Of a stretch of DNA of 64,000 nucleotides, positions 3,985 through 23,259 are shown in pieces. Below the pieces are notes generated by a model that did not search any database, was not told where the DNA came from, and was given only the letters and a program-made list of their open reading frames with translations. Source of the stretch: a virus. The translations under genes were made by a program, and so were the position numbers. Each line of letters opens with the position of its first letter. Position 1 is the first letter of the stretch. The DNA lies in IMG/VR virus record IMGVR_UViG_3300030098_003968, positions 8,603 to 72,602 of that record; one strand, written 5' to 3'.

Positions 3985-4155
3985 ATGGCAGTTGAACCAA
4001 TCCAAATGCTTCGTGAAATCAATCACGACGTAAAAACACCTAAAAAGAGTGATACAATGGAGAGTTCGAACGATTTTTTCGAACGTTTAGCGAGTGATGA
4101 TGACCGAAATTTCAATGAAATTGAATCTTACGAGGTCATTACAGAATATAGGTAA
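3985..4155 (+). CDS. Small acidic hypothetical protein, 56 aa
   Basis: I chose ATG 3985 because GGAGG at 3975-3979 sits five bases upstream; an in-frame ATG at 3952 lies inside the terminator T-run and lacks a ribosome site. The 56-residue product (MAVEPIQMLREINHDVKTPK, ending ITEYR) is acidic with a central serine/aspartate-rich segment and no hydrophobic core. It immediately precedes gene 25, so it could be a small baseplate or chaperone protein, but nothing identifies it. Confidence 0.65.
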   Translation: MAVEPIQMLREINHDVKTPKKSDTMESSNDFFERLASDDDRNFNEIESYEVITEYR

Positions 4156-4164
4156 AAATTCGTA

Positions 4165-4171
4165 ATAAATA
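4165..4171 (+). promoter_or_regulatory. Late promoter motif ATAAATA before gene 25
   Basis: AATAAATA lies in the 37-base gap before the ATG at 4193 and would serve the gene 25 - gene 6 - giant gene operon through the gp55 sigma factor. Confidence 0.6.
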
Positions 4172-4192
4172 ACTAATAATTGGTGTTTTTTT

Positions 4193-4594
4193 ATGCCTTT
4201 AGAGAGGGTAAAACAGGGTTTTAAGGATCTTTCCATGTCATTTAGGAGTAATCCTCTTAATGATGACTTGATTGGTCTGAAAAATGAGAGTGCAATTGCT
4301 CGTTCTGTAAAAAATCTTGTTTTTATGCGTAAAGGAGAGAAATTTTTTGATCCAGAATTTGGATCAGAAATTTCTGCATCATTATTTGAGAATATTGATG
4401 ATGTAACTGCTCTCACAATACGTGATGACATAGATTTTATGATAAAAACATACGAACCGAGGGTTGATTTAATAAATGTTGAAGTTATACCCAATTATGA
4501 CAACAATCAAATGGATGCCGTCATAGTATATTCAATAAAAGGTTCAGATACGCCTCCTCAACAATTAGAATTCGTGTTGCTACCGTCTAGATAA
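4193..4594 (+). CDS. gp25: Baseplate wedge subunit gp25
   Basis: gp25 is the small conserved wedge protein that nucleates the tail sheath at the edge of the baseplate and is homologous to the gp25-like (GPW/gp25) family of contractile machines. The 133-residue length matches T4 gp25 (about 132). The characteristic central stretch KNLVFMRKGEKFFDPEFGS and the following acidic helix (FENIDDVTALTIRDDIDFMI) are clear. The C-terminus forms beta strands (DAVIVYSIK). The stop directly abuts the ATG of gene 6. The family's old lysozyme label is historical; no catalytic claim is made. Confidence 0.93.
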   Translation: MPLERVKQGFKDLSMSFRSNPLNDDLIGLKNESAIARSVKNLVFMRKGEKFFDPEFGSEISASLFENIDDVTALTIRDDIDFMIKTYEPRVDLINVEVIPNYDNNQMDAVIVYSIKGSDTPPQQLEFVLLPSR

Positions 4595-6532
4595 ATGCCA
4601 CTTTTAAATTTTACTGGTCTGGATTTTGAACAGATCAAAACTACTCTTAAAGATTACTTAAAATCTAATTCAGACTTTACGGATTATGATTTTGAGGGTT
4701 CTAACCTGTCAACAATATTAAATGTATTAGCATATAACACATATATTACTTCATACAATGCCAATATGGTATCTAATGAAGTTTTTATCGATAGTGCAAC
4801 ATTAAGAGAGAATGTTGTCTCATTAGCAAGGAATATTGGATATTTACCACGTTCAAAAAAGGCAGCAAAAGCAACAATTAACTTTTTTTGCGATATTTCA
4901 TCAGTTTCACCAGCACCACCTACTGTAGTTCTTAAAAAAGGTGCTGTTGTTAGTACAAGTAAACAATTTAATGGTCAATCCTTTATTTTTGGTATTACTG
5001 AAGATAAATCTGTTAGTGTTGTTGATGGAATTGCTCAATTTGACGAAGTAGAAGTTTATGAAGGCACTATGATTGAGCAATCTTTCGTATATTCTTCCAG
5101 AAACAAATTTCAGAAGTTTATTTTATCAAATGATGGGATAGATTTAGAAACACTTAAAGTTTCTGTTAAACCAAGTCCTCTATCATCAGTTTCTTTGACA
5201 TATTCTCGTCAAGATGACCTTTTTGATAATAATTCTGGTTCAACAATCACTGGAACATCTCCAATTTACTTTATTCAAGAAGTTGAAGACGAACAATACG
5301 AAATAATCTTCGGAGATGGCATTTTTGGTAAAGCTTTACAAGACGGTAACCAAATTAATGTTTCTTATATCAAAACTAAAGGTGAAAGTGGTAATGGAAT
5401 AGCAAATTTCTCATTTAGTGGTAAATTAGTCTATACTCGTAACGATTCTACTGTAAATGTGACTAGTGGGATTTCTCTAGTGACTGCAAATGAGTCATCA
5501 TCGGGTGGACAATCAATTGAGAGTACAGAATCCATTAAAAAGTATGCTCCACAGGTATATGCAACTCAAAATAGAGCATTAACAGCAAATGACTATGAAA
5601 TTTTGATTCCAAACAAGATTTATCCCGAAACAGAGTCAATTTCTGTCTATGGTGGCGAAGATTTGGTTCCTCCGCAGTATGGAAAGGTCTTTATTAGCAT
5701 AAAACCAAGAACTGGTGATTTTATCTCGAATGCTATTAAAGAAAACATCAAAAGAGACCTTAAAAAGTATTCTGTAGCAGGAATTATTCCAGAAATACTT
5801 GATTTGAAGTATTTGTTCATAGAAACAGTCAGTAATGTCTATTATAACGTAAATTTAGCAAGAAATGTTGCAGCAGTCTCTAGTTTAGTAAAATCTAACA
5901 TTGACAAGTATGCTGATTCTGCAGAATTGAACAAATATGGTGCAAGATTCAAATATAGTAAATTTTTGAAGATTATTGATCAAAGTCACGAATCAATTTC
6001 TTCTAATATCACCACTATTCAAATAAGACGTGATTTAAGAATTGCTGCAAATCAATTTGCTGAATATGCGATTGATTTTGGTAATCGTTTCCATATTTCT
6101 TCTATGCAAGGATATAATATTAGATCTAGTGGTTTTAAGGTATTAGATATTGTTGATACTGTATACTTGTTTGATGTTCCCGATTCAGATAAGAAAAAAG
6201 GAAAAATTTCACTATTTTCTTTACCAGGAGAAGGAAATGCTGGTCCTGCGAATGTTGTAAGACGTAATATAGGTGTTATTGACTATGTTAAAGGACGCAT
6301 TACTTTAAACCCAATAAATATAGTATCAGGTAAATCTAAAGATAACGTTGAGATTTTGGAAATTTCTGCTATACCCGAATCTAATGATGTTATTGGTTTA
6401 CAAGACCTTTATTTACAATTAGATAAGAGTGATTGTTATATGATTGTTGATGAAATTACTTCAGGTGCCGATCCATCAGGGTCAACTTACACCGTTACTC
6501 CAAGTTATAACCCAGGTAAGATTGTAAGATAA
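4595..6532 (+). CDS. gp6: Baseplate wedge subunit gp6
   Basis: gp6 forms the continuous ring of the baseplate by dimer contacts between wedges and belongs to the baseplate J-like family. The 645-residue length agrees with T4 gp6 (about 660). Its N-terminus, PLLNFTGLDFEQIKTTLKDY followed by an aromatic- and asparagine-rich helix (NVLAYNTYITSYNANM), is the conserved J-like start. VYGGEDLVPPQYGKVFISI is the conserved mid-domain. It begins on the base after the gp25 stop and is followed three bases later by the giant baseplate gene, so the three are almost certainly cotranscribed. Confidence 0.92.
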   Translation: MPLLNFTGLDFEQIKTTLKDYLKSNSDFTDYDFEGSNLSTILNVLAYNTYITSYNANMVSNEVFIDSATLRENVVSLARNIGYLPRSKKAAKATINFFCDISSVSPAPPTVVLKKGAVVSTSKQFNGQSFIFGITEDKSVSVVDGIAQFDEVEVYEGTMIEQSFVYSSRNKFQKFILSNDGIDLETLKVSVKPSPLSSVSLTYSRQDDLFDNNSGSTITGTSPIYFIQEVEDEQYEIIFGDGIFGKALQDGNQINVSYIKTKGESGNGIANFSFSGKLVYTRNDSTVNVTSGISLVTANESSSGGQSIESTESIKKYAPQVYATQNRALTANDYEILIPNKIYPETESISVYGGEDLVPPQYGKVFISIKPRTGDFISNAIKENIKRDLKKYSVAGIIPEILDLKYLFIETVSNVYYNVNLARNVAAVSSLVKSNIDKYADSAELNKYGARFKYSKFLKIIDQSHESISSNITTIQIRRDLRIAANQFAEYAIDFGNRFHISSMQGYNIRSSGFKVLDIVDTVYLFDVPDSDKKKGKISLFSLPGEGNAGPANVVRRNIGVIDYVKGRITLNPINIVSGKSKDNVEILEISAIPESNDVIGLQDLYLQLDKSDCYMIVDEITSGADPSGSTYTVTPSYNPGKIVR

Positions 6533-6535
6533 CAA

Positions 6536-9500
6536 ATGACCCTAAAAAAAGTTCAGCTTAATAAAATTGTAAAAAATCAACTGCCTGAATACGTTCGGGA
6601 AGATTTTCCACTTGTTGGTGAATTTTTAAGTGCTTATTATAAGGGACAAGAGTATCAAGGTGCTCCAATTGACTTGGTTAATAATATTGATTCATACATT
6701 AAATTAAGTGAATGTGGCAATATTATCAAATCTACAACATTAATTAATAGAGTTGAAGAAACTGCAACTGATATTCTTGTTGATAATACAGATGGATTTC
6801 CAGATAATAATGGATTAATCAAAATTGGTGATGAAATTATATCATATGACAGTAAAACTAATGTAAAATTTGTTGATTGTACAAGAGGATTCAGTGGAAT
6901 TACCTCTTTTACAAATCCTTCTGAACCAGAAGACTTAATTTTTTCAACTTCTACTGCTGCTCCACATGATGAGGATGTTGTAGTAGAAAATTTAAGCGTT
7001 TTATTCCTAGAAGAATTTTTAAGAAAGACAAAAAATCAATTATTATACGGAATTCAGAAGGATTTACATGAAAATTTAAACCAATCTACATTTATTAAGC
7101 ATTCTAAAGATTTTTATTCCACAAGAGGTACTGATGAATCCTTTAAAATCCTCTTTGGAGCACTTTTTAACGAAAAAGCAGAAGTTATTAGACCTATAGA
7201 TCGTGTAGTTTCTGCTTCTAATGCCAATTTTAGGAAAACAAGAGACATTATTGTTGAATCAGTACTAGGTGATCCTATAGATTTAATCAATAAGACCCTT
7301 TTTCAAGACACATATGAGAATATTTCGAAAGCATATGCCCCAGTATCACATGTAGAGAGTATAAATGTTGGAATTAACACCAATATTTTCTATAAAATCA
7401 GTTTAGACACCTCTTGGAACCAACATGACGGTTCTACAGAGTTGTTATATGGTGAATTTTCTTCTCATGCCAAGTCAATTATCGTTGGTGACGTTGGAAT
7501 TGGTCAAACTTACATTGATGTAGACTCAACATTAGGATTTCCAAACTCTGGAACCCTCTCGTTTGTCTATGCAAACGGTGAAAGTGGTATTGCAACCTAT
7601 GCATATAAAACTCTTAACCAGTTTTTAGATATTAATCCAACTTCAATTGCTTCATCTATCACTGATAGGACATTTATTGACCAAGATACTTATGCATATT
7701 CTGCTGGATCAGGAACAACTGATGGAATAAGAGTAAAAATTAGATCAGTATTGAATAATTTACAAATTCCAAGTGATACTCGTTTCTATAATGCAGGTTC
7801 TAGGATAAAAATTAAGTCATTAGGTCATATTGGAACTAGTTTTAATCAAAATAACTGGATTTTTAACACAATTCAGAATTATGATATAAGAGAATTAAAA
7901 TTAGTTGATCAAGTAAACTCCACATATAAGTTAATTACTGAAGATCCTAATATTTTTAGAATTGGTGATAATGTAAGACTATATGATAAAAATGATGATT
8001 TGTTAGTTAATCAATATGAAGTAAGAGATTGTTATGATTCAAGGACTATCTTAATTAGAGGTGAAGGTATACCTTCTGATACAACAACTATTTTAAATGT
8101 ACGTAGAGATTTTTCAAGAGTTAATTCAGACATACACTCTGATTTAAACAGACTTATTGCTAATATTCAAAATGTTTATGTTGGTGGTGAATCTATTTTA
8201 GTTGCTTCAAACTCATTACCTGCTCATGGTGGTTTGAAGTTAAATCCTAGAGATCAAAAGGTAACAATTTCAGGAAAATATAATGATGAAGTAGAAGAAA
8301 TTACTTTAACAACTGGTATTGACCATAACTTCTATACTGGAGATGCTGTTTATTATACTCCAGAGAAAGGATCAGCAACAATTGTTGATTGGCAGGGTAA
8401 TTCAATCTATCAAGAATGGATTGAAAGTCAATTATTTGATGAAGGACTTTATTTTGTAAAAAGAATAGATGATAATATTGTAAAATTAGCAAAGAGTCGC
8501 CCGAATATTTACAACAATATTTTTGTTAAAGTTAATGCTAGTGGTGGAGATGATATTGAAATTAATAATAATACTATTGAGAAATATGATTTTCATGAGA
8601 AGAAGATACAACCTCAAAAATTATTAAGAAAAATCTCTAAACCAGTTCAGGATGGTAAAGTTCATGAGACTCCTATTGGATATACTGGAATACTTATTGA
8701 TGGTGTAGAGGTTCTTAACTATAAGTCTAGGGACACTGTATATGCAGGCCAATTGGACTCTATAGAGGTCATGAAGGGCGGTGAAAACTATGATGTGATA
8801 AATCCACCCATATTAACTATTAACGATTCTGTTGGGTCTGGAGCGACTGGATATGCTGCAGTTAGAGGTAGTTTTCAAGAAATTAGAATTCTAGATAAAG
8901 GATTTGATTTTATTGATGTTCCTATAGTCAAGATTACTGGAGGTAATGGAGAAGGAGCAACTGCTGAAGCAAAAATACGCACAGAACCACATGAAGTTAC
9001 TTTTGATGCTACAGGAATAGCTACAGCAATTCAAATAGGTATCGATACATCTATTATTGGATTTACCACTTATCACAAGTTTAGAACTGGTGAGAGAGTA
9101 GAATATAATACATTTGGTAAAAAGGCATTGGCGGGTCTTAATACTGGAGCAGTATATTATGTTGGAGAAGTTGATAATAAAAATATTAAATTATATACTT
9201 CATTTGATGGTGCAATTGCTGGTGTTGGTACTACTGGATTTACAGATTATGGTGAAGGATATCATTCTATAAAATCATTAAAAGGTAAGGCAGTAGTAGG
9301 TACAATTCAAGTTACAAATCCTGGTACTGGATATGAAAATAAGCAAAGAACACTTCAACCTGTTGGTGTTGATACTGCACTGAATATTATACATCTTCCT
9401 GATCATGATTATAGAGATCAAGAAATTGTTCAATATTCTTCAGATGGAACTGCTATAGATGGTCTTTCTACTTCATTAGATTATTATGTTAAAGTTATTG

Positions 9501-12500
9501 ATAAAGATTCCTTTAAATTAGCAAATGTTGGTGTAGGAACTACTGTAAAAGATTTTTATTATAGAACTGAACAATGGGCAAACTTTAGATCTACAGGTGT
9601 AGGAACTCATAGTTTCAATTATCCACCTATTACTGTTACGGTAACAGGAACAGTTGGTATCAATTCTATAGAGGGTGATACTTTCCAATGTATTGCACAA
9701 CCAATTGTACGAGGTGAAATAACTTCAATTCATTTAACAGAGAATGGTGTAGGATACGGTGCATCAGAAGTACTTAATTTTGAAAGAAATCCAGATGTTA
9801 CCTTAAATCAAGGAAGAGGTGCTTATTTAAGTCCAGTAGTTCATAATGGATCTATTGTAGATGTTAGTGTTAGTCTTGGTGGAACAGATTATAATGCTCC
9901 ACCAAATATAGTAGTCTCTGGTTTAGGAACTGGAGCAGAACTAGTCCCAGAAATGGATGCACTAGGTAATATTGTTTCTATTAAGGTTAATAAGGGTGGA
10001 ATTGGATATGGTGTATCTACTACAACAGTTAGAGCAGAAGTATCAGGAAAGAAAGTATTATTCAGACCAAAAGTGCAGGAATGGAGAGTTAATAACTTTA
10101 AGAGAAATTTTGGTAATTTACTTAATGATGATATCTTTATTGATAGACCAACAAATAGAGAATTTGAATTACAATGTTCTTATGCATATGCCCCTAGAAG
10201 TTTAAGAAAGATTCTTTATACATCAGGTTCTGATGGAGATATAATATATGGTAAGAAAGATTTAACACTTAAAAATAATCAAGAGATAAGTCAGGATAAA
10301 CACTCTCCTATTATCGGATGGGCATATGATGGACATCCAATTTATGGACCATATGGATATACCACAAGAACTGGTGGTACAATCACCCAGATGAAATCTG
10401 GTTACATAGAGAATGCAGGAGTAAAAGTAAATAGACCTCCAACTACAGTATTCCCAGAAGAATTTTTTGTTGAAGATTTTGAGTGGTCATATTCTACAGA
10501 TGATGGTATTCTTGATGAAAATAATGGAAGGTTCTGTGTAACTCCCGAATATCCAAATGGCACCTATGCATATTTTGCAACGTTTGAAGCGGATGTAGAA
10601 GGTACTGGACCATTTATAAACTATAAGAGACCTGCTTTCCCATATTTAATTGGAAAAAACTTTAATGCTGCACCTGAAAAATTTAATTATGAAAGATTAT
10701 CTAACCAAGATGATATAAACTTAAATGATACCGATTGGATTAGAAATACATTCCCATATGCTTTAGATAAAGATAATAGTGGATATGATTATGTACAAGA
10801 ATCATATACTTTTAGTACTCAAGATTCTATTATTAAATCTGTTGAGAAGAGTGGTATAGATGCAGTTGGTATTGTTACTGGTGGAACAAAATATCAAGTT
10901 GGTGATAAAGTAGTTTTTGAAGAAGATACTGAACATAATTTTGCTGCTGCTGCAAGAGTTTTAAAAGTTGCTGGGCCAGGAATATCAACAATTAGCATAA
11001 ATCCTGTTTTATTGGACGATGTAGAATTTTATCCATCAGGTAGAAAAGGTGAGTTTATTGGAATAGCAACAACAAGTCATGGCGTTATAAACAATACAGT
11101 TTTATCAATCTCTGGACTATCAACAACTTCTTCTAAACTTGAAGGTTCTTATAATGTTGGTATTAATACAAACCAACTTTCTTTATCAGTTGCAATTGGA
11201 ACTGAAGGGGTTACTGGTATTGTTACGTATCTTTCTGTAAAGGGAAATTTACAATATCCTGCAATAAAGGAAAATGATCTTTTACGTTTATCTGGTATAT
11301 TAACTACTGGTAATTTTGGTGATGAGGAAGTTAAAGTATTAAATGTAGATAGATTAAATTCTAGAATTAGAGTTTTAAGGGATTTAAAAGCACAAACTGG
11401 ATTATCTCATACTGCAACAACAGTTATAAAAGATATTCCTAGAAAATTTACTTTTAAAACAGGAATAACCACTACATATAGTCCTAAAGTTAATACAGAA
11501 TATTATTTCTATCCAGGTGAATCAGTTGGATTGGGAACTGCTACTCCTATAGGTATTGCTGGTACTGTAGTAGGATCTGGTAATACCATAACATTTGAAA
11601 ATCCTGGTGCGGGGATTGCTACAATTTTTGTACCAGCACAAACAATTTATCTACCAAATCATTCATTACAAACTGGTGATGAAGTAACATATCATACAAA
11701 TACTGGAACTTCTATAGGAATTGTAACTGCTGCAAATAATGTTGCTGTAGGTACAGATATTGCTCTTAATCTATATCCATCATTATTTGTTGCTAGAATA
11801 GATAGAGACCATATTGGTGTATCATCAGTTAAGGTTGGAATGGGTTCAACTGGAATGTTTGTTGGTGGTGCAACAACAACTGCCCATACTGGTTTAGTTT
11901 ATTTCTCTGGTGTAGGAACTGGTGTTTATCATAGTTTTAAAACCAAGAGTTATAATAGTGATATTATAAAAGGATCTATAGAGCAGAATAGAGTAAATGT
12001 TTCTTTAGCAGGTACTCATGGATTAAACCACAATGAAGAGGTTAATGTTACAGTTAATCCAAGAAATACTGGTATTACCACTATACAATATGATAAACCA
12101 AATAGAAAAGTAATTACTCGTGGATTAGGATTTACTGCAAGTGGAGTTACAACTACTACTTCATTAACAGGAACTCCAGATTCTATTGAAATCATAAATC
12201 ATGGTTTAACTACAGGACAAAAAGTAATTCATAAATCAGCAACTCCTGCTGGTGGATTGGTTCATGAGAAAGAATATTATGTTTATGTTATTAATAGGAA
12301 TAGGATTAAGTTATGTTTGGATAAGTATGAAACAGGAAAAACAATTCCTGGATTTGTAGGTCTTACTACAGCAAATGTTGGAACACTTTGTGAAATTAAC
12401 CCAACTTTAAATTTCTATAGAGATTCTAATATAACATTTGATTTATCAGATTCTTCTCTATCATATACAAGAGGTTCTGAACAATATCCAGCATTTGAAT

Positions 12501-15500
12501 TAGAATTTTATAGAGATGCTTCTTATACTGATAAGTATGATACAAATGGTACAAGTAGAACATTTGATATCAATAGAACTGGTACTGTAGGTGTAACAGC
12601 AGATGCTAAAGTAACACTTGCTGTTAATAAAAATACTCCAGATGTATTTTACTACAAATTATCTCCAGTTGATCAAAAAGAAAACCCTCAAATTTATAAA
12701 GATCTTGTAATAGATGATGTTGTTGATGGTTATAATCAGATTATTATTAAGGAAAGTGATTATGCTGGTAGATTTAATATTCTTCTAGAATCTGAAAATA
12801 CATTTACTTATAATCTAGGTAAATATCCAGAAAGTGAATCATATTCTGGATCTACATCACAATTAGAATATGACACAAACTCTACATCTGCTTATGGTCG
12901 TATAACTGATGTTCAGATTGTTAGTACTGGAAGTGGTTACCCAGAAGTACCTGGCATTACTACAGTAACCTCTGATACTGGAAGCGGAGCTATATTAGAA
13001 GCAACTAGTAAAACAATAGGAAGAGTTAATAAATCTGTAATAGAAAATATTGGTTTTGACTATCCTACAGATAAAACATTAAGACCAGAAGTTGCATTCC
13101 CTCAAATTTTAAAAATAGAGGCATTATCAGGATTTGAGTCTATTGGAGTTACTTCTTTAGGAAGAGGATATAATACAGCACCAAGTCTAGTAGTTATTGA
13201 TAATAGAACAAAGAAACAGATTACTGATGTTGATTTAAAATATCATCTTAATGTTTCTTCAGCAAGTGTTGAGATTTTAGAAAATACAAATAGTTTATTT
13301 AATACAACTCCTACAATTTTACCTGTAGGTAATCCTAATGGTATTAGGATGAAAGATTTTAGTTACAATGCTAATACTCAAGTAGTAACTGCCACATACA
13401 AAAATACAGTCAGTAGAGTTGAAGATTTTGTATTAGAAGTTGGTGATAGAATTATGGTTGAAAACGTTGCTGTTGGACTTGGTTCAACTGGTTCTGGATA
13501 TAATTCTAAAAACTATGATTATAATTTATTCACCATAACAGGTGTTAGTACTAATTTGGGTTCATATCCAACAATAACTTATAGTATGGCAGATTTCCTT
13601 GATAAGGATGTCAATGAATTACCTGGTAGATTTGTTAGTGTTAATTCTGGTGCAATAGTAACTCCAGAGAAGTATTTCCCACAGTTTAGTTCAACTATAA
13701 AAAGTAATCAGTTTAATCCTGAAGAAGGTGTAACTAATGGAACAGCAGTTGGTAGTGTATTTAAATGGGATCCAGAAACTGGAGAATTGGTAGTAGAGAG
13801 TAATAGAGAATTTGAGGTTGGTACTGTTATTGAATCTAAAGAAACAAATTCTAAAGGAAAAATTGTTAGCAAATTATCTACAGATTCAATATACGATTTA
13901 GATTATTATTCAGTTGTTGAGAATGGTTGGGAATATAGAACAGGATTCTTAAATGACGAATTACAAAGAATTCATGATAATGAGTATTATCAGAATTTCT
14001 CATATGCTATTAAATCTAGAGTTACTTTTGATGACTGGAAGGATGTTGTAAGTTCATTAAATCATGCTGCAGGATTTAAGAAGTTTAGTGACTTACAATT
14101 AGAATCTCAACCAGATGATCCAAATCAATTAGAAGTAGAAGTTGCATCTTTAACTGATGTTGTTGTAGATTTTCATGGTTATGAGAGTTTACATACTGTT
14201 GAGACATTTGATTTAGCTACTGAAAATTACCTTGTTGGTGATGATGGAATATTCTCTGATGAGATTAATTTCGAAAATCGTATTCTGACAGATTATGCAC
14301 AGTCTGTTGGAAACAGAGTTTTACAAGTAGATGATATTAGTGGTGATTTTGATGATAATGCAAGAACATCAAGATATGCTGATGTCTTTAGGCAATCTAC
14401 TAAAGATGGTAGATCTCAAAAGATTGTTTGTTATGTAAGAGATAGATTATATGGTGGTGAAAGGCAGATGATGATAGTTAATGCCTTACATGATATTGAT
14501 CGTGGTTTCTCCATGATTAACCAGTATGGTGATGTTAGTACTGTTGAAGATCTTGGAAGTTTTGACTATGTTTATGAAGGTGGTGAAACGATTTTAAGAT
14601 ACTTCCCAACAAAGTTTGAAGTAAACAATTATAATATAAGAACATTCTCATATAACCTTGATAAAAACGTACTTGGAATTGAGACTTCTGTTGCTTCAAT
14701 TGGAAGTACAACAATTGGTATATCAACAGACTTTATTGGGTCTTTAGTAAGTATTGCAAGTACTAACGTTGAAATAGCAGGTGGTGCAGCAGATGAGATC
14801 TATAGATTTGTTGGAGTTGGAACTAATATATCAGGAACTAGATCCGCTAAAGTATTAGTTACTGCCGAAACTGATACTGGAAGAGTTGAATATGATGAAG
14901 TAAGTTTGATATGTGATGGAACAAATGTAAGTTGGCAAGAATTTGGACAATTAACCATTCATAGTTACCTAGATCCATATTCATCAGCAGGTAATATTGG
15001 AACATTCTATTCTCACATGAATGGTCAGGATATTGTTCTTAAGTATACACCTGATGCTGGATTCACAACTACAAGAGTTAATGCAATTGCAGTAGCATTC
15101 TCTACTGAAGGATATAAGAACGAATCACAGACTGATTATGAATTTCAGTATGGATCTATGCAAGCACAGAGTAAGTTCATGGAGGCTGCTGCTGATCCTG
15201 ATGCTGTAGGTATTGCAAGTTACTCTGATGAATATGATGCTGCATACTTCATAGTTCAAGCAAGTGATATGGCAACTAATTCACATTGCTTAACAGAAGG
15301 TATTATTATTGATGACTATGCTGAAAATGGAAATGATACAGTCTATATGACCGAATATGGTGAGATTCATGTTGGTGCTGCTTTCACTGATTTAGGTACT
15401 ATTGATGGTAGAAGAGGATCAGGAGATAGAACAGAAATAACTTATAGACCTGCTTCTGGTAGAGATATTGATGTTAAGATCTTTATGAATACCCTTCGGG

Positions 15501-18500
15501 TTGAGGAAAACACTAATGTATCTCCTACAGAAAGAGAGACAGGTGGTGAAATACTGAAGGAATTCAATAATGCAACTATTGAAACAAATGGTGCAACATA
15601 TGAAGGAACAGAGACTACAGTTAAGAAGAGATTTAATCTTCAATATAAGAATGAGGATATCTTTAGAAGGAATTTTGATGGATCAAGTGATGTAACTGTT
15701 AATGTAAGTAATAACACATTAGAGATACCAAACCATTTCTTTGTAACTGGTGAAGAAATTAAGTATAGTGTTAAAACTGGATTTACTACAGATGCTATTA
15801 GTATTGCAAATACTAGTTTTGCTGGTATTGGGTCAACTACTCGTATGCCATCATCAGTCTTTGTTATTAAGCAAAGTGAGAACATAATCAAACTTGCAAG
15901 AAGTGCTGAAGATGCATTAAAATCCAATCCTGTTGAGTTAGATATTACTTCTGTTGGTATTGGAACATCACACTCATTAACATCAACAAATCAGAACCAA
16001 AAAGTTATGATGTTGATTGATAATATGATTCAGTCTCCAATTGCTGGTACATCTGTTACTACAACTTTAGCAGATAGTGCTGCATTGGCACAGGATGTTA
16101 TTAAATTTACAGGTATATCATCATTTGCAGGAGCAGATTATATTCAAGTTGGTAGTGGAAATACGATAGAATGTATGAAGATACTTTCTGTTGGTATTGG
16201 ATCAACAAACCAAATTAAGGTTAGACGTGGATGGTTAGGAACTACAGAAGCAGGATTTAGTACTGGAGCATTAGTGCAGAAGATTAGAGGTCATTATAAT
16301 ATTGTTGATAATGAAATTCATTTCATTGAACCACCTCATGGAGCACAACCTTTTGGTACTTCAACAAATCCACCAGATCAACGGGATTACCTAGGTATCA
16401 CTACAGCATCTAGTTTCCAAGGTAGGGTCTTTATGAGATCTGGTGTAAAGGATACTACTGAAGAAACATATACATCAAACTATCTTTATGATGATATTTC
16501 AAATAGATTTACTGGATATGATAAGGAATTCCCACTAACAGTAGATAAGCAATCTGTAACTGGAGTTTCTACTAATAATGCAATTATTATTATAAATGGA
16601 GTATTCCAAGGACCAGGTGCAAACAACAATTATACTATGAGTGAAGTTGGTGGTGGTACTTCAATTTCATTTACTGGTAGTGCAAGTTCTGTTGGATTTG
16701 ATCCTAATAATGCAAATATTCCTGTTGGTGGTGTTATTGTTTCTGTTAGTTCAACTGACGGATTTGGATATCAACCTTTAGTCTCTGCTGGTGGTACAGT
16801 AATTGTTTCTTCTGCAGGTACTATTAGTAATATTACTATCGGAAATACTGGTTCTGGATATAGAGTTGGTCTTCAAACTGTTAATGTTGCAATTCAGACA
16901 GCAAGTAATTTAGATGCTCAAAGTTTCCTTGATAGATCTTCCTTTATAGGAATAGGTACAGCACAGATTGTTGATGGTAATATAACTGGAATTGCGATTA
17001 CCAATCCTGGAATAATCTATACTCCAAGAGATATTACTAATGCTGGATATAGTTCAGTAACTGGTATTACTACAATCACAACAACAAAACCACATGGATT
17101 AGTGGTTGGTGATGATATTAGGATTAGTGGATTAGCATTTACCTGTGAGTATGCACCTTCAATGTCAATATCAACTGCATCTTTCCATGCAGCAACTGGT
17201 ATTATGACTGTGAGTGTTGGACTCAATACTGTAGGAGTTACAACATTCTCATATGATAACGTAGTTGGAGTAGGTACAGTTACATTAGTAGAACCTCATA
17301 AGATTGCTCATGCTACTGGTGTTGGTAGAAGTTTCACTCTTGCTGGATTAAATGTTGGACTTGCTCGTTCTGGAGTTTCCTATGGTTCAACTACTTGGCC
17401 TAATTTAAGTTCTTCATTCTACGAAGAAACTGCAACAGGAGATACATTTACTATAGTAAGTATTCCAAGTCCTACTGAAATTAAGTTTACTGCTGGTATT
17501 AGTACATTAACTCATACTTATACATCTGGTGGACATTTAGGATTTGGTCATAAGATGAAAGTTGGTGATACTGCTATCTTAACTGGATTAGCATTTACTG
17601 GTCATTCTGGTCTTACTACCGATTACTATCCTCATGGAAAAGATGCTGCATATGATACTTCTGTTGAGATTACAAATGATGGTACAGCATATACAGTAAC
17701 AAATGCATCATATAACCCCACCACTGGTGTATTAACACTTACAGTTCCTGCTCATGGATTCTCTAATGGAGATAAGATAAGATTAGTTGATAAGTCATTA
17801 ACATTTACTTGTGCAAAGAATGATCATAAGACTCAACATGAATATCCAAGAGCAACAGATCCTGTTAGTGGTGAATGGTTAACAATTTCAAATAAGACAA
17901 CTAATACTTTTAGAGTTAATGTATTAACTAATGCACCTTCATCTAATACAAGTACTCACACTTTTGTATCAGCGAAGGCAGATGGTCTTATTCATCAGAG
18001 TCCAACAATTACTGTTAATGTTGGTTCTGCTGGTGAGAATGATCAATATACACATACATTTGTTAGTGCAGCAACCAGTGCTATAGTTTCTGGTGGTAAC
18101 TATACACATAACTTTGCTTATGCAATTAAGGGTGGCGTAAGATCTGGTGGAAATTACCTCCACACATTTGCAAGTGCAGTTGATGGCGGAGTTACTGCAA
18201 CAGGAGTTGGTACAATGACTCCTACTGATGCTTCATATAATCCTACAACTGGTGATTTAACTCTTACTATTGCTAATCATGGATTAAACACAGGTAATAC
18301 TGTTGGTATTGCTACAAGTGCAATAACATTTACTTGTTATATGGATCAGCACAATACTGAACATGCATATCCTCGTGCAAATGATCCTATTGCTGATGAT
18401 TCAAATATTGCAATTACTGGATTTACAACCAATACCTTTACTATAAATGTTGGAACAACTCCGATTGTAACTCATAATGTCACAAATGCGGTATATACAC

Positions 18501-21154
18501 CTACAACTGGAGTATTGGTATTAACTCTTGATGATACTCATGGATTATTAACTGGAAGAAGTGTAAGACTTGTAGATGAATCCTTATACTTCACATGTGA
18601 AATGGATGGAAACAGTAGTTACCATGCATATCCAAGATCTACTGATCCTATATCTGCAAATGCAGTTTCAATTGCAGCAACTACTGCTACTACTATTACT
18701 CTTAATGTTGGTGTAACAACAACTGTATATTATGATGTTGCTGTTGGTTCTGGAACTTCTGCTACATCATACAATGCATCAACTGGTGAACTTGTACTTA
18801 ACGTTGGTATGGGTCATAGTTTGAGAAAAGGAAGAAGCATTAAGATTGCTACTGATTCACTAACCTTCAACTGTACCAAGGATGGTAATGCTACAAACCA
18901 TACTTATCCAAGAGTACCAACTGCCAACTATCGTGGTATGGAAGTTGTTGGAATTGGTACAACAGTTACAGAACTTTCAATAAGTGCTGGAATAGCAACA
19001 CTTGCGAAATATTATCAAGGTGGAGGAGTAATTCAGGAAGCATTAATAACACCTAGAGGTACTGATGCTGGTGCTGGTGGAATGACTGTTCTTACAGTAA
19101 TTGATACCAAGTCGTTTACAGTTAATAGTGGCAAATCTGAATATCATCATTTATATGCACGAGGTGGATCTGTTACTAGAAAGATGGACGTTGTAATTGA
19201 TGATCCTCTATCATATACAGATATTCCTCTTGCATATAGTTCAACTTCTCCTGGTACTGGTGGATTACAAGCAACTGCAGATATAGTTGTTAGTATGGGT
19301 TCAACCATTATTGACTTTACTATTAAGAATACTGGTTATGGTTATAATGTTGGTCATATTTTAACTTTACCAATAACAGGTGCAATAGGAATTCCAACAA
19401 CATCTAGTGCTAATTTCAATGAATTTAAATTAACAGTTCAAGAAGCAGATTATGATGTATTTACTGGATGGTCAGTAGGACAACTTCAAGTTCTTGATAA
19501 CTTCTCTGAACTATTTGATGGTGTTAGAAAATCATTCCCAATTACTTTAAATGGTGAAGTATTATCAATTCAGGCGAAGAGAGGTTCTTTAATATCCATT
19601 CAAGATACTATTCTTGTGTTTATTAATGATATTTTACAGGTTCCAGGAAAAGGATATGAATTTAATGGTGGTAGTCAGATAACCTTTACTGAAGCACCTA
19701 AAGGCCCTACAGATGATGGAATGTATGAGGGTGATACTATGAAGTTCCTATTCTATAAAGGAACTGGTGGTGGTGACGTTGTTGATGTTGATGTTATAGA
19801 AACTGTTAAGAAGGGTGATGATTTACGTTTAGAATATGATTCAAGAGTAAATGCTGATTTATTAGGAATACAAGAAGATACGAGAACAGTTTCTCAAGTT
19901 ACTTCTACAAATTCTGTTGATACAAATATCTACTTCGGGCCAGGATTAAGTGAAGATGGATCTTTAACTAGATCTGTCACTTGGACAAGACAACTTGAAG
20001 ATAAGTATGTTGATGGTAAGATTGTTGGAAAGAATCGTGAATTATATGATGCTAATATATTCCCATATGCACATCTAATTCAACCAGTAGGTGTTGGAAC
20101 TACAATTGCTTATGTTGATAATTTAAGGCCAATTTTTGATCCTCAAACTGAAAGTGAAGTAAGTACTAATTTCCAGAAGAGTGTTACTATAGTATCACAA
20201 GCAGATAAACTTGGTGCTGCAGCAACCTCATTTGTTGGTGGTGGATCTACGGTCATATCTGTTGCAATATCAACTGGTGGTAGAGGATACACATCTGCTC
20301 CTCAAGTATCAATTCAAAATCCTGTTGGATTAGGAACAACTGCTAGAGCAACAGCAACAGCATCAATTACTGCTGGTGTGGTTACTTCAATTACTATTAC
20401 TAATGATGGTGGTGTTGGGTACTCACAGACAACTCATCCACTAGTCTTGATTAGTCCACCTACATATACTAGGGAAAATAATAGTGTTGATTCCTATAAT
20501 GGTGATTCTGGAATAATTGTTGGATTTGGTACCACCAGTACAACTGCTGGACCTGAATTAATATTTGACTTATTCATTCCAGAGGATTCTAATTTAAGAG
20601 ATGCTGCAATGACTGGAACAGCAGTAACTCAATGTGGTATAACTACTGCAGATTATTTCACTGTTTTCAACTCTAATGTTGGAGTTGCTGATACGGGTGC
20701 AGGTATCGGTGTAACACCATTTACATCAAAATCAATAGATGACCGTGTAATTGGATTCTCTACTCAATTTGTTGATGCTATCTTCCAAGTTGGTAGTGCT
20801 GATATTATTGAACGACATGTATTGGGAATAGGTACTACATCTGTTACTAGAATACATACATCAGTTCTAACGGGTATTGGTACTGAAAACTGGGATTCTG
20901 GTGGAATTACAATGGATTCTACATCATTAACATTAGATAATGAAGCAAGTGGTAACGTTTATGCAGGTACAATTTCTACGACTACTAATGGTCAGGCTTA
21001 CTTCGGTAATTATAGTTGGGGTAAGATTGTATTAGGTCCAAGGATTGCTGCTAATTCATATACTTATTATGGAGATCAAGGGTTTACTGGTATTTCAACT
21101 GGTGATATGATATTCAGAAGACCTAAATTGAGAACAGTTGGTTATGCTACTTAA
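6536..21154 (+). CDS. Giant repeat-rich baseplate-associated protein with YHYH domain, 4872 aa
   Basis: This single frame spans 14.6 kb. The N-terminal 300 residues (MTLKKVQLNKIVKNQLPEYV and a later helical part) look like a wedge-attachment domain, and the slot after gene 6 is that of T4 gene 7 (about 1030 aa). It is therefore probably the gp7 counterpart, hugely expanded. Visible modules: many N-x-G-x-G-Y beta units; a YHYH-type domain around residues 1255-1360 with YDGHPIYGPYGY at 1264-1275; four THTF-type repeats at 3807-3895; four FTC...YPR repeats at about 3720-4125. It has no signal peptide or membrane segment. Glycine, threonine and isoleucine dominate, as in extended beta fibres. It is likely a baseplate extension or fibre; exact homology to gp7 is inferred from position. 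Confidence 0.8.
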   Translation: MTLKKVQLNKIVKNQLPEYVREDFPLVGEFLSAYYKGQEYQGAPIDLVNNIDSYIKLSECGNIIKSTTLINRVEETATDILVDNTDGFPDNNGLIKIGDEIISYDSKTNVKFVDCTRGFSGITSFTNPSEPEDLIFSTSTAAPHDEDVVVENLSVLFLEEFLRKTKNQLLYGIQKDLHENLNQSTFIKHSKDFYSTRGTDESFKILFGALFNEKAEVIRPIDRVVSASNANFRKTRDIIVESVLGDPIDLINKTLFQDTYENISKAYAPVSHVESINVGINTNIFYKISLDTSWNQHDGSTELLYGEFSSHAKSIIVGDVGIGQTYIDVDSTLGFPNSGTLSFVYANGESGIATYAYKTLNQFLDINPTSIASSITDRTFIDQDTYAYSAGSGTTDGIRVKIRSVLNNLQIPSDTRFYNAGSRIKIKSLGHIGTSFNQNNWIFNTIQNYDIRELKLVDQVNSTYKLITEDPNIFRIGDNVRLYDKNDDLLVNQYEVRDCYDSRTILIRGEGIPSDTTTILNVRRDFSRVNSDIHSDLNRLIANIQNVYVGGESILVASNSLPAHGGLKLNPRDQKVTISGKYNDEVEEITLTTGIDHNFYTGDAVYYTPEKGSATIVDWQGNSIYQEWIESQLFDEGLYFVKRIDDNIVKLAKSRPNIYNNIFVKVNASGGDDIEINNNTIEKYDFHEKKIQPQKLLRKISKPVQDGKVHETPIGYTGILIDGVEVLNYKSRDTVYAGQLDSIEVMKGGENYDVINPPILTINDSVGSGATGYAAVRGSFQEIRILDKGFDFIDVPIVKITGGNGEGATAEAKIRTEPHEVTFDATGIATAIQIGIDTSIIGFTTYHKFRTGERVEYNTFGKKALAGLNTGAVYYVGEVDNKNIKLYTSFDGAIAGVGTTGFTDYGEGYHSIKSLKGKAVVGTIQVTNPGTGYENKQRTLQPVGVDTALNIIHLPDHDYRDQEIVQYSSDGTAIDGLSTSLDYYVKVIDKDSFKLANVGVGTTVKDFYYRTEQWANFRSTGVGTHSFNYPPITVTVTGTVGINSIEGDTFQCIAQPIVRGEITSIHLTENGVGYGASEVLNFERNPDVTLNQGRGAYLSPVVHNGSIVDVSVSLGGTDYNAPPNIVVSGLGTGAELVPEMDALGNIVSIKVNKGGIGYGVSTTTVRAEVSGKKVLFRPKVQEWRVNNFKRNFGNLLNDDIFIDRPTNREFELQCSYAYAPRSLRKILYTSGSDGDIIYGKKDLTLKNNQEISQDKHSPIIGWAYDGHPIYGPYGYTTRTGGTITQMKSGYIENAGVKVNRPPTTVFPEEFFVEDFEWSYSTDDGILDENNGRFCVTPEYPNGTYAYFATFEADVEGTGPFINYKRPAFPYLIGKNFNAAPEKFNYERLSNQDDINLNDTDWIRNTFPYALDKDNSGYDYVQESYTFSTQDSIIKSVEKSGIDAVGIVTGGTKYQVGDKVVFEEDTEHNFAAAARVLKVAGPGISTISINPVLLDDVEFYPSGRKGEFIGIATTSHGVINNTVLSISGLSTTSSKLEGSYNVGINTNQLSLSVAIGTEGVTGIVTYLSVKGNLQYPAIKENDLLRLSGILTTGNFGDEEVKVLNVDRLNSRIRVLRDLKAQTGLSHTATTVIKDIPRKFTFKTGITTTYSPKVNTEYYFYPGESVGLGTATPIGIAGTVVGSGNTITFENPGAGIATIFVPAQTIYLPNHSLQTGDEVTYHTNTGTSIGIVTAANNVAVGTDIALNLYPSLFVARIDRDHIGVSSVKVGMGSTGMFVGGATTTAHTGLVYFSGVGTGVYHSFKTKSYNSDIIKGSIEQNRVNVSLAGTHGLNHNEEVNVTVNPRNTGITTIQYDKPNRKVITRGLGFTASGVTTTTSLTGTPDSIEIINHGLTTGQKVIHKSATPAGGLVHEKEYYVYVINRNRIKLCLDKYETGKTIPGFVGLTTANVGTLCEINPTLNFYRDSNITFDLSDSSLSYTRGSEQYPAFELEFYRDASYTDKYDTNGTSRTFDINRTGTVGVTADAKVTLAVNKNTPDVFYYKLSPVDQKENPQIYKDLVIDDVVDGYNQIIIKESDYAGRFNILLESENTFTYNLGKYPESESYSGSTSQLEYDTNSTSAYGRITDVQIVSTGSGYPEVPGITTVTSDTGSGAILEATSKTIGRVNKSVIENIGFDYPTDKTLRPEVAFPQILKIEALSGFESIGVTSLGRGYNTAPSLVVIDNRTKKQITDVDLKYHLNVSSASVEILENTNSLFNTTPTILPVGNPNGIRMKDFSYNANTQVVTATYKNTVSRVEDFVLEVGDRIMVENVAVGLGSTGSGYNSKNYDYNLFTITGVSTNLGSYPTITYSMADFLDKDVNELPGRFVSVNSGAIVTPEKYFPQFSSTIKSNQFNPEEGVTNGTAVGSVFKWDPETGELVVESNREFEVGTVIESKETNSKGKIVSKLSTDSIYDLDYYSVVENGWEYRTGFLNDELQRIHDNEYYQNFSYAIKSRVTFDDWKDVVSSLNHAAGFKKFSDLQLESQPDDPNQLEVEVASLTDVVVDFHGYESLHTVETFDLATENYLVGDDGIFSDEINFENRILTDYAQSVGNRVLQVDDISGDFDDNARTSRYADVFRQSTKDGRSQKIVCYVRDRLYGGERQMMIVNALHDIDRGFSMINQYGDVSTVEDLGSFDYVYEGGETILRYFPTKFEVNNYNIRTFSYNLDKNVLGIETSVASIGSTTIGISTDFIGSLVSIASTNVEIAGGAADEIYRFVGVGTNISGTRSAKVLVTAETDTGRVEYDEVSLICDGTNVSWQEFGQLTIHSYLDPYSSAGNIGTFYSHMNGQDIVLKYTPDAGFTTTRVNAIAVAFSTEGYKNESQTDYEFQYGSMQAQSKFMEAAADPDAVGIASYSDEYDAAYFIVQASDMATNSHCLTEGIIIDDYAENGNDTVYMTEYGEIHVGAAFTDLGTIDGRRGSGDRTEITYRPASGRDIDVKIFMNTLRVEENTNVSPTERETGGEILKEFNNATIETNGATYEGTETTVKKRFNLQYKNEDIFRRNFDGSSDVTVNVSNNTLEIPNHFFVTGEEIKYSVKTGFTTDAISIANTSFAGIGSTTRMPSSVFVIKQSENIIKLARSAEDALKSNPVELDITSVGIGTSHSLTSTNQNQKVMMLIDNMIQSPIAGTSVTTTLADSAALAQDVIKFTGISSFAGADYIQVGSGNTIECMKILSVGIGSTNQIKVRRGWLGTTEAGFSTGALVQKIRGHYNIVDNEIHFIEPPHGAQPFGTSTNPPDQRDYLGITTASSFQGRVFMRSGVKDTTEETYTSNYLYDDISNRFTGYDKEFPLTVDKQSVTGVSTNNAIIIINGVFQGPGANNNYTMSEVGGGTSISFTGSASSVGFDPNNANIPVGGVIVSVSSTDGFGYQPLVSAGGTVIVSSAGTISNITIGNTGSGYRVGLQTVNVAIQTASNLDAQSFLDRSSFIGIGTAQIVDGNITGIAITNPGIIYTPRDITNAGYSSVTGITTITTTKPHGLVVGDDIRISGLAFTCEYAPSMSISTASFHAATGIMTVSVGLNTVGVTTFSYDNVVGVGTVTLVEPHKIAHATGVGRSFTLAGLNVGLARSGVSYGSTTWPNLSSSFYEETATGDTFTIVSIPSPTEIKFTAGISTLTHTYTSGGHLGFGHKMKVGDTAILTGLAFTGHSGLTTDYYPHGKDAAYDTSVEITNDGTAYTVTNASYNPTTGVLTLTVPAHGFSNGDKIRLVDKSLTFTCAKNDHKTQHEYPRATDPVSGEWLTISNKTTNTFRVNVLTNAPSSNTSTHTFVSAKADGLIHQSPTITVNVGSAGENDQYTHTFVSAATSAIVSGGNYTHNFAYAIKGGVRSGGNYLHTFASAVDGGVTATGVGTMTPTDASYNPTTGDLTLTIANHGLNTGNTVGIATSAITFTCYMDQHNTEHAYPRANDPIADDSNIAITGFTTNTFTINVGTTPIVTHNVTNAVYTPTTGVLVLTLDDTHGLLTGRSVRLVDESLYFTCEMDGNSSYHAYPRSTDPISANAVSIAATTATTITLNVGVTTTVYYDVAVGSGTSATSYNASTGELVLNVGMGHSLRKGRSIKIATDSLTFNCTKDGNATNHTYPRVPTANYRGMEVVGIGTTVTELSISAGIATLAKYYQGGGVIQEALITPRGTDAGAGGMTVLTVIDTKSFTVNSGKSEYHHLYARGGSVTRKMDVVIDDPLSYTDIPLAYSSTSPGTGGLQATADIVVSMGSTIIDFTIKNTGYGYNVGHILTLPITGAIGIPTTSSANFNEFKLTVQEADYDVFTGWSVGQLQVLDNFSELFDGVRKSFPITLNGEVLSIQAKRGSLISIQDTILVFINDILQVPGKGYEFNGGSQITFTEAPKGPTDDGMYEGDTMKFLFYKGTGGGDVVDVDVIETVKKGDDLRLEYDSRVNADLLGIQEDTRTVSQVTSTNSVDTNIYFGPGLSEDGSLTRSVTWTRQLEDKYVDGKIVGKNRELYDANIFPYAHLIQPVGVGTTIAYVDNLRPIFDPQTESEVSTNFQKSVTIVSQADKLGAAATSFVGGGSTVISVAISTGGRGYTSAPQVSIQNPVGLGTTARATATASITAGVVTSITITNDGGVGYSQTTHPLVLISPPTYTRENNSVDSYNGDSGIIVGFGTTSTTAGPELIFDLFIPEDSNLRDAAMTGTAVTQCGITTADYFTVFNSNVGVADTGAGIGVTPFTSKSIDDRVIGFSTQFVDAIFQVGSADIIERHVLGIGTTSVTRIHTSVLTGIGTENWDSGGITMDSTSLTLDNEASGNVYAGTISTTTNGQAYFGNYSWGKIVLGPRIAANSYTYYGDQGFTGISTGDMIFRRPKLRTVGYAT
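10304..10620 (+). other. YHYH-type domain inside the giant protein
   Basis: Residues about 1257-1361 contain GWAYDGHPIYGPYGY, then GRFCVTPEYPNGTYAYFATF, then RPAFPYLIG just after. This arrangement is typical of the YHYH domain (PF14240 as I recall), found in secreted bacterial proteins and marine phage structural proteins. Its biochemical role is not established. Here it is embedded between beta-repeat regions. Confidence 0.7.
17696..18930 (+). repeat. Tandem protein repeats with Cys and YPR motif in the giant protein
   Basis: Four units of about 75-90 residues begin near residues 3721, 3898, 3982 and 4076. Each has (S/V)Y(N/T)xxTG, an HG or GHS turn, and F(T/N)C with cysteines at 3759, 3934, 4021 and 4113, then a (H)xYPR motif. 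The first three continue xxDP. Degenerate copies lie upstream (LAFTCEY near residue 3523). Between units 1 and 2 sit four THTFVSA-like repeats. Confidence 0.8.
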
Positions 21155-21192: not shown

Positions 21193-23220
21193 ATGGCAAA
21201 GCAAGGAATAGGTACTGGATCGGCCGCTAATGACGGGACGGGTGATAGCCTGAGATCTGCTGCTGGAAAAATAAATGCAAACTTTGATGAGATCTACGCT
21301 CTATTAAGAGGTGGTGGAAATAGTGGTAGTACTTTACTTGCTGGAATTGTTACATCGATTGTTGCTGGAGATAATGTTACTCTTACTGGTGGACCTACGG
21401 GAATTGTTACTATAAATTCTGCTGCAGGTGGTGGTGTTGGATATTTTAATGAAAATTCTACAGGTATTAGTACGGTAAGTAATGTTGGTGTAGGTACAAC
21501 TACTGCATCATCAAGATTAACCGTTGATGGAACAGTAAAGATAACTGGAATAACAACAATAGATTCAAGTCTCAATCAAACAGGTACTGCTACATTTAAT
21601 GATGATATAACTTTTACTGGTGATAGTGCTAATATTTTTTGGGATAAGAGTCAGAATCAACTAGAATTTGCTGACAATGCGAAGGCTATTTTCGGGACGG
21701 GAACTGACCTTCAAATATATCATAATGGCCAGGATAGCTACATCCAAGACTCTGGAACGGGTGACATAATCATCTATGGTTCTGGTGAGACTCTTGCTAG
21801 ATTTAAAGATGATGGGGGTGTAACTCTTTTCCATAACGATCTACCTCAATTTGACACGGTTGGATCGGGTGTAAGTGTTATAAACCAGATAAGTGTAGGT
21901 GCAACTGCTACTTTTGATGCAAAAGTTATAACAGGTACAGGTGCTACTGTTGGGTTTGGTAGTACTGCATACTTTAAGGATGATGCAAAACTATCCTTCG
22001 GTGCTGGGGCTGACCTAGACATCTGGCATGATGGCAGCCATAGTTACATAAAGGATACAAAGTCTGCTGGTAATCTATATCTACAAAGTTCTAACTTACT
22101 CATCAATAACCAGGCAAACAATGCCACGATGATTAAGGCAGAAGCAGGAAGTAATGTTGAGTTGTACTATGCGGGTACAAAGACTTTTGAGACGAGTACT
22201 TTAGGAGTTAAGGTTAGCACTGGTGCTACTTTACAGACTAATGGTGCTGCTTCATTTGCTGGTATTGTTACGGCAAATGGTGGATTAAGAGTTGGTTCAG
22301 CAGTCAGTATTGGTATCAATGATGGTAATGCTGGATTTACTGGTATTGTTACTGCAAATAAATTTGTTGGTGATGGTTCTGGACTGACTGGTGTAACTGG
22401 TTCTGGTTCTGGTGTTGTTGTTAAGGATAGTGGATCAACTGTAGGTACTGCAGGAACTATTAACTTTGCAGATAACTTAACTGTTACTCCAATTCATCTT
22501 GGTATTGTAACTGTTAGTGCATCAGGTGGTAACAACGTTGCTGGTATTGATACAACCGCAGGTTCTACATTTACCAACTTAAAGGCAACTGGTATCACAA
22601 CACTAACTGGTGCTTTGGATGCTAACGGTGGTGCTACTATTGATAACATTCAAATTGGTGTTACTGGTGATAATGAGATTGATACTGCTTCAGGAAATCT
22701 AACAATAGATTCTGCAGGTGGTCAAGTTGTTATTGATGATTATTTGAGAGTTTCTGGTGTTGCTACCTTAAGTAGTAATGTCAATATCAGTGGTGTAACA
22801 ACTTCTGCTACTTTCTCTGCTACTGGTACCAATTCTGGATTGATGACATCCAGATATGAATTTACAGGAACTACTGCTGCCATTAACAATAATGGTATTG
22901 GTAATACTGAATTTAGTGGATATAAATCATATGCACTAATAAAAGTCGGACTATCAACAGCAGGATGGTTAAGACTATATACTGACGATGCATCAAGAAG
23001 TTCTGATTCTACTCGTAGTGTAGGAGAAGATCCTACTCCAGGTAATGGAGTTATTGCAGAGGCTGCAGTTAGTGCAGGTTCTACAACATTAAACTTTACA
23101 CCTTATGCATTGGGTGGAAATGCTGGTTCTGCTACTACTGTGTTTGCAGCAATAACTAACCAGTCTGGTGTAACAACAACCTTCAATTATTCAATTACAT
23201 TACTTCAATTAGAAGTGTAA
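21193..23220 (+). CDS. Tail-fibre-like virion protein, 675 aa
   Basis: The N-terminus (MAKQGIGTGSAANDGTGDSL, then AAGKINANFDEIYALL) is the conserved attachment start I associate with cyanophage fibre proteins. The shaft is built of repeated beta modules. DLQIYHNGQDSYIQD recurs as DLDIWHDGSHSYIKD, and KFVGDGSGLTGV is a typical fibre repeat. The C-terminal 130 residues (from about MTSRYEFTGTT) form a distinct tip-like domain rich in aromatic and charged residues. It has its own late promoter motif and lies between the giant baseplate gene and another structural gene. Host-receptor contact is inferred, not shown. Confidence 0.8.
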   Translation: MAKQGIGTGSAANDGTGDSLRSAAGKINANFDEIYALLRGGGNSGSTLLAGIVTSIVAGDNVTLTGGPTGIVTINSAAGGGVGYFNENSTGISTVSNVGVGTTTASSRLTVDGTVKITGITTIDSSLNQTGTATFNDDITFTGDSANIFWDKSQNQLEFADNAKAIFGTGTDLQIYHNGQDSYIQDSGTGDIIIYGSGETLARFKDDGGVTLFHNDLPQFDTVGSGVSVINQISVGATATFDAKVITGTGATVGFGSTAYFKDDAKLSFGAGADLDIWHDGSHSYIKDTKSAGNLYLQSSNLLINNQANNATMIKAEAGSNVELYYAGTKTFETSTLGVKVSTGATLQTNGAASFAGIVTANGGLRVGSAVSIGINDGNAGFTGIVTANKFVGDGSGLTGVTGSGSGVVVKDSGSTVGTAGTINFADNLTVTPIHLGIVTVSASGGNNVAGIDTTAGSTFTNLKATGITTLTGALDANGGATIDNIQIGVTGDNEIDTASGNLTIDSAGGQVVIDDYLRVSGVATLSSNVNISGVTTSATFSATGTNSGLMTSRYEFTGTTAAINNNGIGNTEFSGYKSYALIKVGLSTAGWLRLYTDDASRSSDSTRSVGEDPTPGNGVIAEAAVSAGSTTLNFTPYALGGNAGSATTVFAAITNQSGVTTTFNYSITLLQLEV

Positions 23221-23230
23221 CTATTTTTTA

Positions 23231-23237
23231 ATAAATA
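23231..23237 (+). promoter_or_regulatory. Late promoter motif ATAAATA
   Basis: TTTAATAAATAACC lies between the fibre gene and the ATG at 23260, about 22 bases upstream of the start. Confidence 0.6.
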
Positions 23238-23259
23238 ACCTTAACAAGACTATTGTAAA

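Follow-up and report, generated by a model that had tools for sequence, protein, structure and literature searches.

A 4872-residue protein encoded by a T4-like marine phage is very probably a gp7-type baseplate wedge subunit with a divided core and two accreted arms

The DNA analysed here (the window) comprises 64,000 nucleotides and is part of an 87,368-base IMG/VR virus record, in which no member of the psbA family was found. The gene of interest is an ATG-initiated frame on the plus strand that begins three bases past the gp6 stop codon, extends for 4872 residues with zero internal stops and occupies 22.8% of the window. An earlier sequence-only reading had described a single uninterrupted frame taking nearly a quarter of the window and lying after genes 25 and 6; all of this was borne out, with gp25 and gp6 matches located directly upstream. 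The relevant genes are as follows.

4193..4594, plus strand: gp25-type baseplate wedge subunit (Pfam GPW_gp25, E 1.7e-12)
4595..6532, plus strand: gp6-type baseplate wedge subunit (Gp6-like_1st, E 1.3e-15; phrog_219, E 1.5e-189)
6536..21154, plus strand: putative giant gp7-type baseplate wedge protein (4872 aa, calculated mass 527 kDa; PHROG 2885; cyanophage naming)
21193..23220, plus strand: 675-aa protein with a T4 gp10-like N-terminus (residues 3-38 are 55.6% identical to T4 gp10 2-37, E 1.5e-7)
25095..26660, plus strand: gp8-type baseplate wedge subunit (Pfam Phage-Gp8, E 6.9e-15; T4 gp8, E 6e-7)
26667..34508, plus strand: VrlC-type protein of 2613 aa (phrog_358, 2051 bits; no detectable gp7 similarity)

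The resulting order, 25-6-7-(10-like)-two small genes-8-VrlC, places the giant frame at the position of gene 7. The interval between gp7 and gp8 (21193-25073) encodes the 675-aa protein, a 503-aa protein and a 100-aa protein. The first resembles T4 gp10 across its N-terminal ~40 residues, the remainder being different sequence, and the second has no match in PHROG or Pfam. This three-gene set is kept in the near relatives L077, L078, L079 and L081, whereas the cyanophages with PHROG 2885 gp7s have no gene between gp7 and gp8.

The frame comes from a metagenomic contig and includes a repeat cassette, so that a chimera of assembly or binning has to be considered. Complete versions of 4863, 4864 and 4879 aa, repeat cassette included, are present in three IMG/VR contigs from other samples, and the isolate Synechococcus phage SynMITS9220M01 encodes a colinear homologue of 4067 aa. 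In comparisons with relatives showing differences at 15-40% of synonymous sites, dN/dS is 0.13-0.33 for the full length compared and stays under 0.52 in each 800-codon block; selection is thus purifying in every block. All 54 N-terminal relatives examined are open up to the contig end, and chance is ruled out for an open run of 4872 codons at ~33% GC. The assembly artefact, named in the sequence-only reading as what could overturn it, was ruled out by the dN/dS values and the independent full-length contigs, and the probability that the frame is a chimera is virtually nil.

Comparison with PHROG profiles yielded PHROG 2885, 'baseplate wedge subunit', at E 0 and 3437 bits (residues 4-3720 of 4872 aligned with profile positions 8-3567 of 4179), a profile match over nearly the full length. 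A tblastn search with residues 1-500 matched 467 phage records, cyanophages nearly throughout, many of them annotated as gp7 or baseplate wedge initiator. Identity with T4 gp7 was assessed by profile-profile alignment of the giant's N-terminus with seven T4-type gp7s. In the segment termed core piece 1, residues 186-217 (FIKHSKDFYSTRGTDESFKILFGALFNEKAEV; 187-218 in the scan of the whole protein) correspond to T4 gp7 727-758 (FESRSYDFYSTKGIEASYKFLFKVLYNEEVEI) with an hhalign E of 1.5e-9 and 50% identity across 32 columns; phiM19 gp93 serves as a bridge, with E 2.8e-22 to the giant and 7e-11 to T4 gp7. Core piece 2, matched over residues ~2418-2514 with SYAIKSRVTFDDWKDVVSSLNHAAGF at the C-terminal end, corresponds to T4 gp7 811-887 with an hhalign E of 2.4e-5. 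This direct match is modest, and the case for core piece 2 leans on intermediates, namely the short homologues of Melnitz-2 (hhalign E 2.4e-12), phiM19 (E 3.2e-11) and IME-SM1 (E 2.4e-7).

Scanning the whole giant in twenty 240-aa chunks against the T4 gp7 profile produced scores for core pieces 1 and 2 only, in the T4 order (E 3.5e-10 for core piece 1), and no similarity to T4 gp7 was found outside them. Column-shuffled T4 profiles (60 shuffles each) reached maxima of 26.8 and 37.9, compared with real scores of 85.6 and 48.2. The reciprocal search of T4 gp7 against the PHROGs matched PHROG 2885 at T4 730-758. Hidden Markov models of the two pieces (two-anchor HMMs) found both in every gp7 examined that spans both, and the core piece 1 model was positive in all gp7s examined, including those of T4, phiM19, IME-SM1 and S-CREM2. 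The Pfam domains Gp7_helical, Gp7_5th and Gp7_6th were found in T4 gp7 and not in the window protein. They are likewise missing from the phiM19, IME-SM1 and Melnitz-2 homologues, and therefore mark the T4 subgroup rather than the wider family.

These results argue that the giant is very probably the gp7 wedge subunit of a T4-like marine myophage, built of a two-piece core with accreted arms. The equivalence to gene 7, previously inferred from gene order, is now supported by two colinear matches to the T4 gp7 profile, by the bridging short homologues and by the reciprocal match; the N-terminal profile comparison proposed at that time gives the E of 1.5e-9 quoted above and points to gp7 and not to a non-baseplate family. 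What has to be narrowed is the extent of the homology, which spans a small core and not the protein at large. The GenBank naming of the cyanophage giants as gp7 is right.

Marine cyanobacteria and other streamlined marine bacteria are hosts to very abundant T4-like phages whose baseplate is little understood, and published accounts are divided over the presence of gp7 in them. According to an annotation comparison, pelagi- and cyanomyophages lack T4 gp7 and have VrlC in its place (PMC7029224), in which case the giant would be a separate fibre-like protein. Chunks of VrlC compared with the T4 gp7 profile showed no gp7 similarity (all P <1%), in contrast to the two colinear homologous pieces of the giant, and both phiM19 and IME-SM1 encode a short two-anchor gp7 homologue together with VrlC. 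The statement that VrlC replaces gp7 is consequently unsupported, and a substitution of this kind is highly improbable. At the level of sequence, the two anchors settle what the gene is, and they also locate the inserted extra mass. The organization of the giant is outlined below.

6536..6721, plus strand: residues 1-62, predicted helices, proposed core-bundle hairpin (low-confidence model)
6983..7270, plus strand: core piece 1, residues 150-245 (T4 gp7 727-758 and flanks)
7271..13957, plus strand: internal arm, residues 246-2474, inserted between the core pieces and holding the YHYH domain
10286..10591, plus strand: YHYH domain, residues 1251-1352 (Pfam PF14240, E 4.1e-22; histidine cluster apparently degenerate)
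13958..14122, plus strand: core piece 2, residues 2475-2529, containing YYQNFSYAIKSRVTFDDWKDVVSSLNHAAGF (T4 gp7 ~860-888)
14123..21151, plus strand: C-terminal arm, residues 2530-4872, beyond the gp7 core
17024..19189, plus strand: repeat cassette, residues 3497-4218 (BLASTP HSPs stop at 3444-3496 and start again at 4219)
17690..17929, plus strand: ~80-aa repeat copy 1, residues 3719-3798 (repeat HMM, 130 bits)
18215..18457, plus strand: ~80-aa repeat copy 2, residues 3894-3974 (repeat HMM, 128 bits)
18473..18712, plus strand: ~80-aa repeat copy 3, residues 3980-4059 (repeat HMM, 124 bits)
18752..18988, plus strand: ~80-aa repeat copy 4, residues 4073-4151 (repeat HMM, 117 bits)
19190..21151, plus strand: conserved C-terminal block, residues 4219-4872 (present in one-chain giants; relatives L077-L082)

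The core is thus split, with ~2,230 residues inserted between its two pieces and ~2,340 more following the second. Total length, residues between the core pieces and residues after the second piece, as obtained with the two-anchor HMMs, are listed here in that order.

IME-SM1 gp7 homologue: 503, 258, 63
Melnitz-2 gp7 homologue: 896, 384, 222
phiM19 gp7 homologue: 1007, 799, 21
T4 gp7: 1032, 106, 144
S-CREM2 gp7 homologue: 1937, 1639, 15
S-SSM7 gp7a: 3007, 2177, 528
SynMITS9220M01 gp7: 4067, 2216, 1553
Window giant gp7: 4872, 2229, 2343
Syn9 homologue: 6076, 2716, 2565

Two further comparisons bear on this division. When the 896-aa Melnitz-2 gp7 was used in tblastn, the cyanophage giants were matched at core piece 1 (~141-242) and core piece 2 (~571-673), commonly as two separate places within one record. 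In the Pfam family PF23786 (Baseplate_wedge) the two halves are adjacent (profile 163-228 and 228-284); they are matched separately in Melnitz-2, the second half alone is matched in S-CREM2, and Pfam gave no PF23786 match for the core piece 2 fragment of the window by itself. Together with the two-anchor spacings, these observations indicate that the core is an old, small unit, to which the giants have added an arm within and another behind. T4 gp7 follows gene 6 and has the two colinear core pieces, as does the window giant, whereas ~640, 106 and 144 residues lie before, between and after the core in T4 compared with ~150, 2229 and 2343 in the window, and T4 gp7 domains V and VI are not recognisable in the giant.

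The sequence-only reading had implied that a protein of this size is exceptional, which was mistaken: homologues of 5195 aa in P-SSM2 and 6076 aa in Syn9 occupy the same place, and 4872 aa is ordinary for the T4-like cyanophage group. The giant family is already known, under the name gp7 or PHROG 2885. Its cyanophage members, annotated 'baseplate wedge initiator' (SynMITS9220M01, Bellamy, S-SM2, P-TIM68 and P-SSM2), share the gene position and, at 4067-5195 aa, the scale of the window protein. SynMITS is colinear with it over residues 1-3496 (48% identity) and 4219-4872 (45%). Shorter forms also exist. IME-SM1 gp109 (503 aa), the Melnitz-2 protein (896) and phiM19 gp93 (1007) have both anchors and follow gp6, and differ from the giant in having little or no arm. 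S-CREM2 gp122 (1937 aa) resembles the giant in gp7 position, in both anchors and in an internal arm with YHYH, and differs in lacking the C-terminal arm, ending 15 residues past core piece 2; it was detected in purified virions by mass spectrometry with 91 unique peptides (PMC10665884).

S-SSM7 (L006, 18992-38086) has the giant naturally split into two genes, with a connector gene between them. The products gp7a and gp7b (3007 and 3001 aa) jointly match the window giant, gp7a covering residues 3-2606 with both anchors and gp7b, which lacks both anchors, the repeats and the C-terminus. Because this second arm is encoded separately and without anchors, the C-terminal arm need not be covalently attached. 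The Syn9 homologue (L075, 12150-29110 and onward) has ~650 residues before core piece 1, compared with ~150 in the window, which indicates that the N-terminus has grown too.

Self-BLASTP of the whole giant chain gave no off-diagonal output, and the repeats were therefore located by chunks. The internal repeats reported earlier proved real, with the four ~80-aa copies at residues 3719-4151 and a partial copy at 3500-3539. The ~720-residue cassette that holds them (3497-4218) is missing from SynMITS, Bellamy and S-SM2, to which the following C-terminal block (4219-4872) is 44-46% identical, and is present in the three nearest full-length relatives; it is lineage-specific, having been gained or lost. 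Repeats of this type, or fragments of them, occur 12 times in P-SSM2 and 14 times in S-SSM7 gp7b, and the repeat family extends to 293 cyanophage or marine phage records.

The YHYH domain of the internal arm is strongly conserved across the giant gp7 family. Such domains have been predicted to be metal-dependent hydrolases with a His/Asp metal site (Iyer et al., PMC7824862), by which the arm bearing it would be a tail-associated enzyme that opens the cell wall. The domain is matched by Pfam at E 4.1e-22, and in the window copy the HSPI histidine (H1256) and the aspartate after it (D1265) are retained. In a comparison with 22 cellular YHYH proteins, however, the YHxH pair and a further histidine, conserved in 21 of the 22, are missing, so that three of the four conserved histidine positions are lost, subject to an alignment that is approximate around YHxH. 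The proposed metal site thus looks degraded, a catalytic role of this copy is unlikely on account of the missing YHxH pair and further histidine, and a hydrolase function of the arm has little likelihood. PDB sequence searches with the whole giant and with the YHYH region returned no match, and the AF2 model of this region was set aside (pLDDT 44.6). Several marine 'bacterial' or 'archaeal' MAG contigs (L084-L099 and others) carry phage-type YHYH regions 30-46% identical to that of the giant, and are probably phage contigs binned with cellular genomes.

An AF2 model of residues 1-900 from 45 sequences had a pLDDT of 60.8 and showed the core helices at the expected places, with pLDDT <50, and was rejected as unusable for the core. 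Foldseek found nothing in the PDB below E 1e-3 with this model, and in BFVD the top match was the Bellamy baseplate wedge initiator, whose relationship had already been evident from sequence. The internal arm is mostly beta where modelled. Within residues 1-62, which align with the N-terminus of phiM19 gp93, helices were predicted at 8-14, 18-23, 25-40 and 46-60 (pLDDT <50). By analogy to XM1 gp17 (PMC10457771), this segment is proposed to act as a core-bundle hairpin.

In T4 and other contractile systems the wedge core is formed by one gp7-type and two gp6-type chains, with a helical bundle and a trifurcation unit as its features, and there are six copies of T4 gp7 (PMC3004832, PMC10457771, PMC6300606). 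The gp7-like part is an evolutionary hotspot and binds fibres (PMC8894135). The giant would fit this scheme, with its core pieces in the wedge and the added mass where relatives attach fibres. Most likely, the conserved (gp6)2-gp7 wedge core arises by joint folding of core pieces 1 and 2 and the N-terminal helices with a gp6 dimer. The remaining ~90% of the chain would be an accretion onto this core, with a beta-rich arm of ~2,230 residues forming a loop between the core pieces and the ~2,340-residue C-terminal arm placed after them. Should each baseplate contain six copies, as it does in T4, the wedge rim would bear about 3 MDa of protein.

The arms are most likely a structural skirt bearing other fibres. 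Alternatively, their main role may be to bind receptors, in which case gp7 would be a covalent tail fibre or adhesin that touches the host surface with its YHYH domain and repeats. Receptor binding has been proposed for YHYH and other domains linked to carbohydrates in these operons (PMC7029224), tail spikes are anchored by an internal loop and the C-terminus of the gp7 orthologue in XM1 (PMC10457771), and the Syn9 homologue is annotated 'putative fiber'. Against this, identity along the giant chain is even, no hypervariable receptor tip was found when the chain was surveyed by identity, the YHYH region belongs to the best conserved stretches (82-87% with near relatives), and a separate 1235-aa fibre gene is present at 38860-42567. 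Because of the even identity and the lack of a hypervariable tip, the structural skirt is favoured and a chiefly receptor-binding role is considered somewhat unlikely. The skirt or fibre network not seen in T4 that was suggested from the sequence alone is plausible. It is rather doubtful that the gp7 of marine phages took over much of the work done at the T4 periphery by the gp10-gp11-gp12 pins and short fibres; if it did, host contact and the contraction trigger would pass through ~3 MDa of covalent arms hinged between the halves of the wedge core.

The giant itself is, by its sequence, a well-supported gp7 of a known kind; what is usefully added is its split-core anatomy, along with a correction of the published view on VrlC. 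The boundaries given for core piece 1, the internal arm, core piece 2, the C-terminal arm and the cassette should be useful for structural work, and help in reading other giant virion proteins.

The gene for the 1235-aa protein at 38860-42567, with tail-fibre family matches and a TTG start as called, has the small terminase gene (38435-38857) on one side and the large terminase gene (43154-44818) on the other; a tandem repeat of 159 bases lies within it at 40821-41114. In the neck protein gp14 (472 aa, 36017-37435), a C-terminal extension has modules common to the giant gp7 and gp8 families, the families so linked being phrog_701, 2885 and 438. The head-closure family phrog_460 is matched in its extension part by residues 4522-4660 of the giant gp7.
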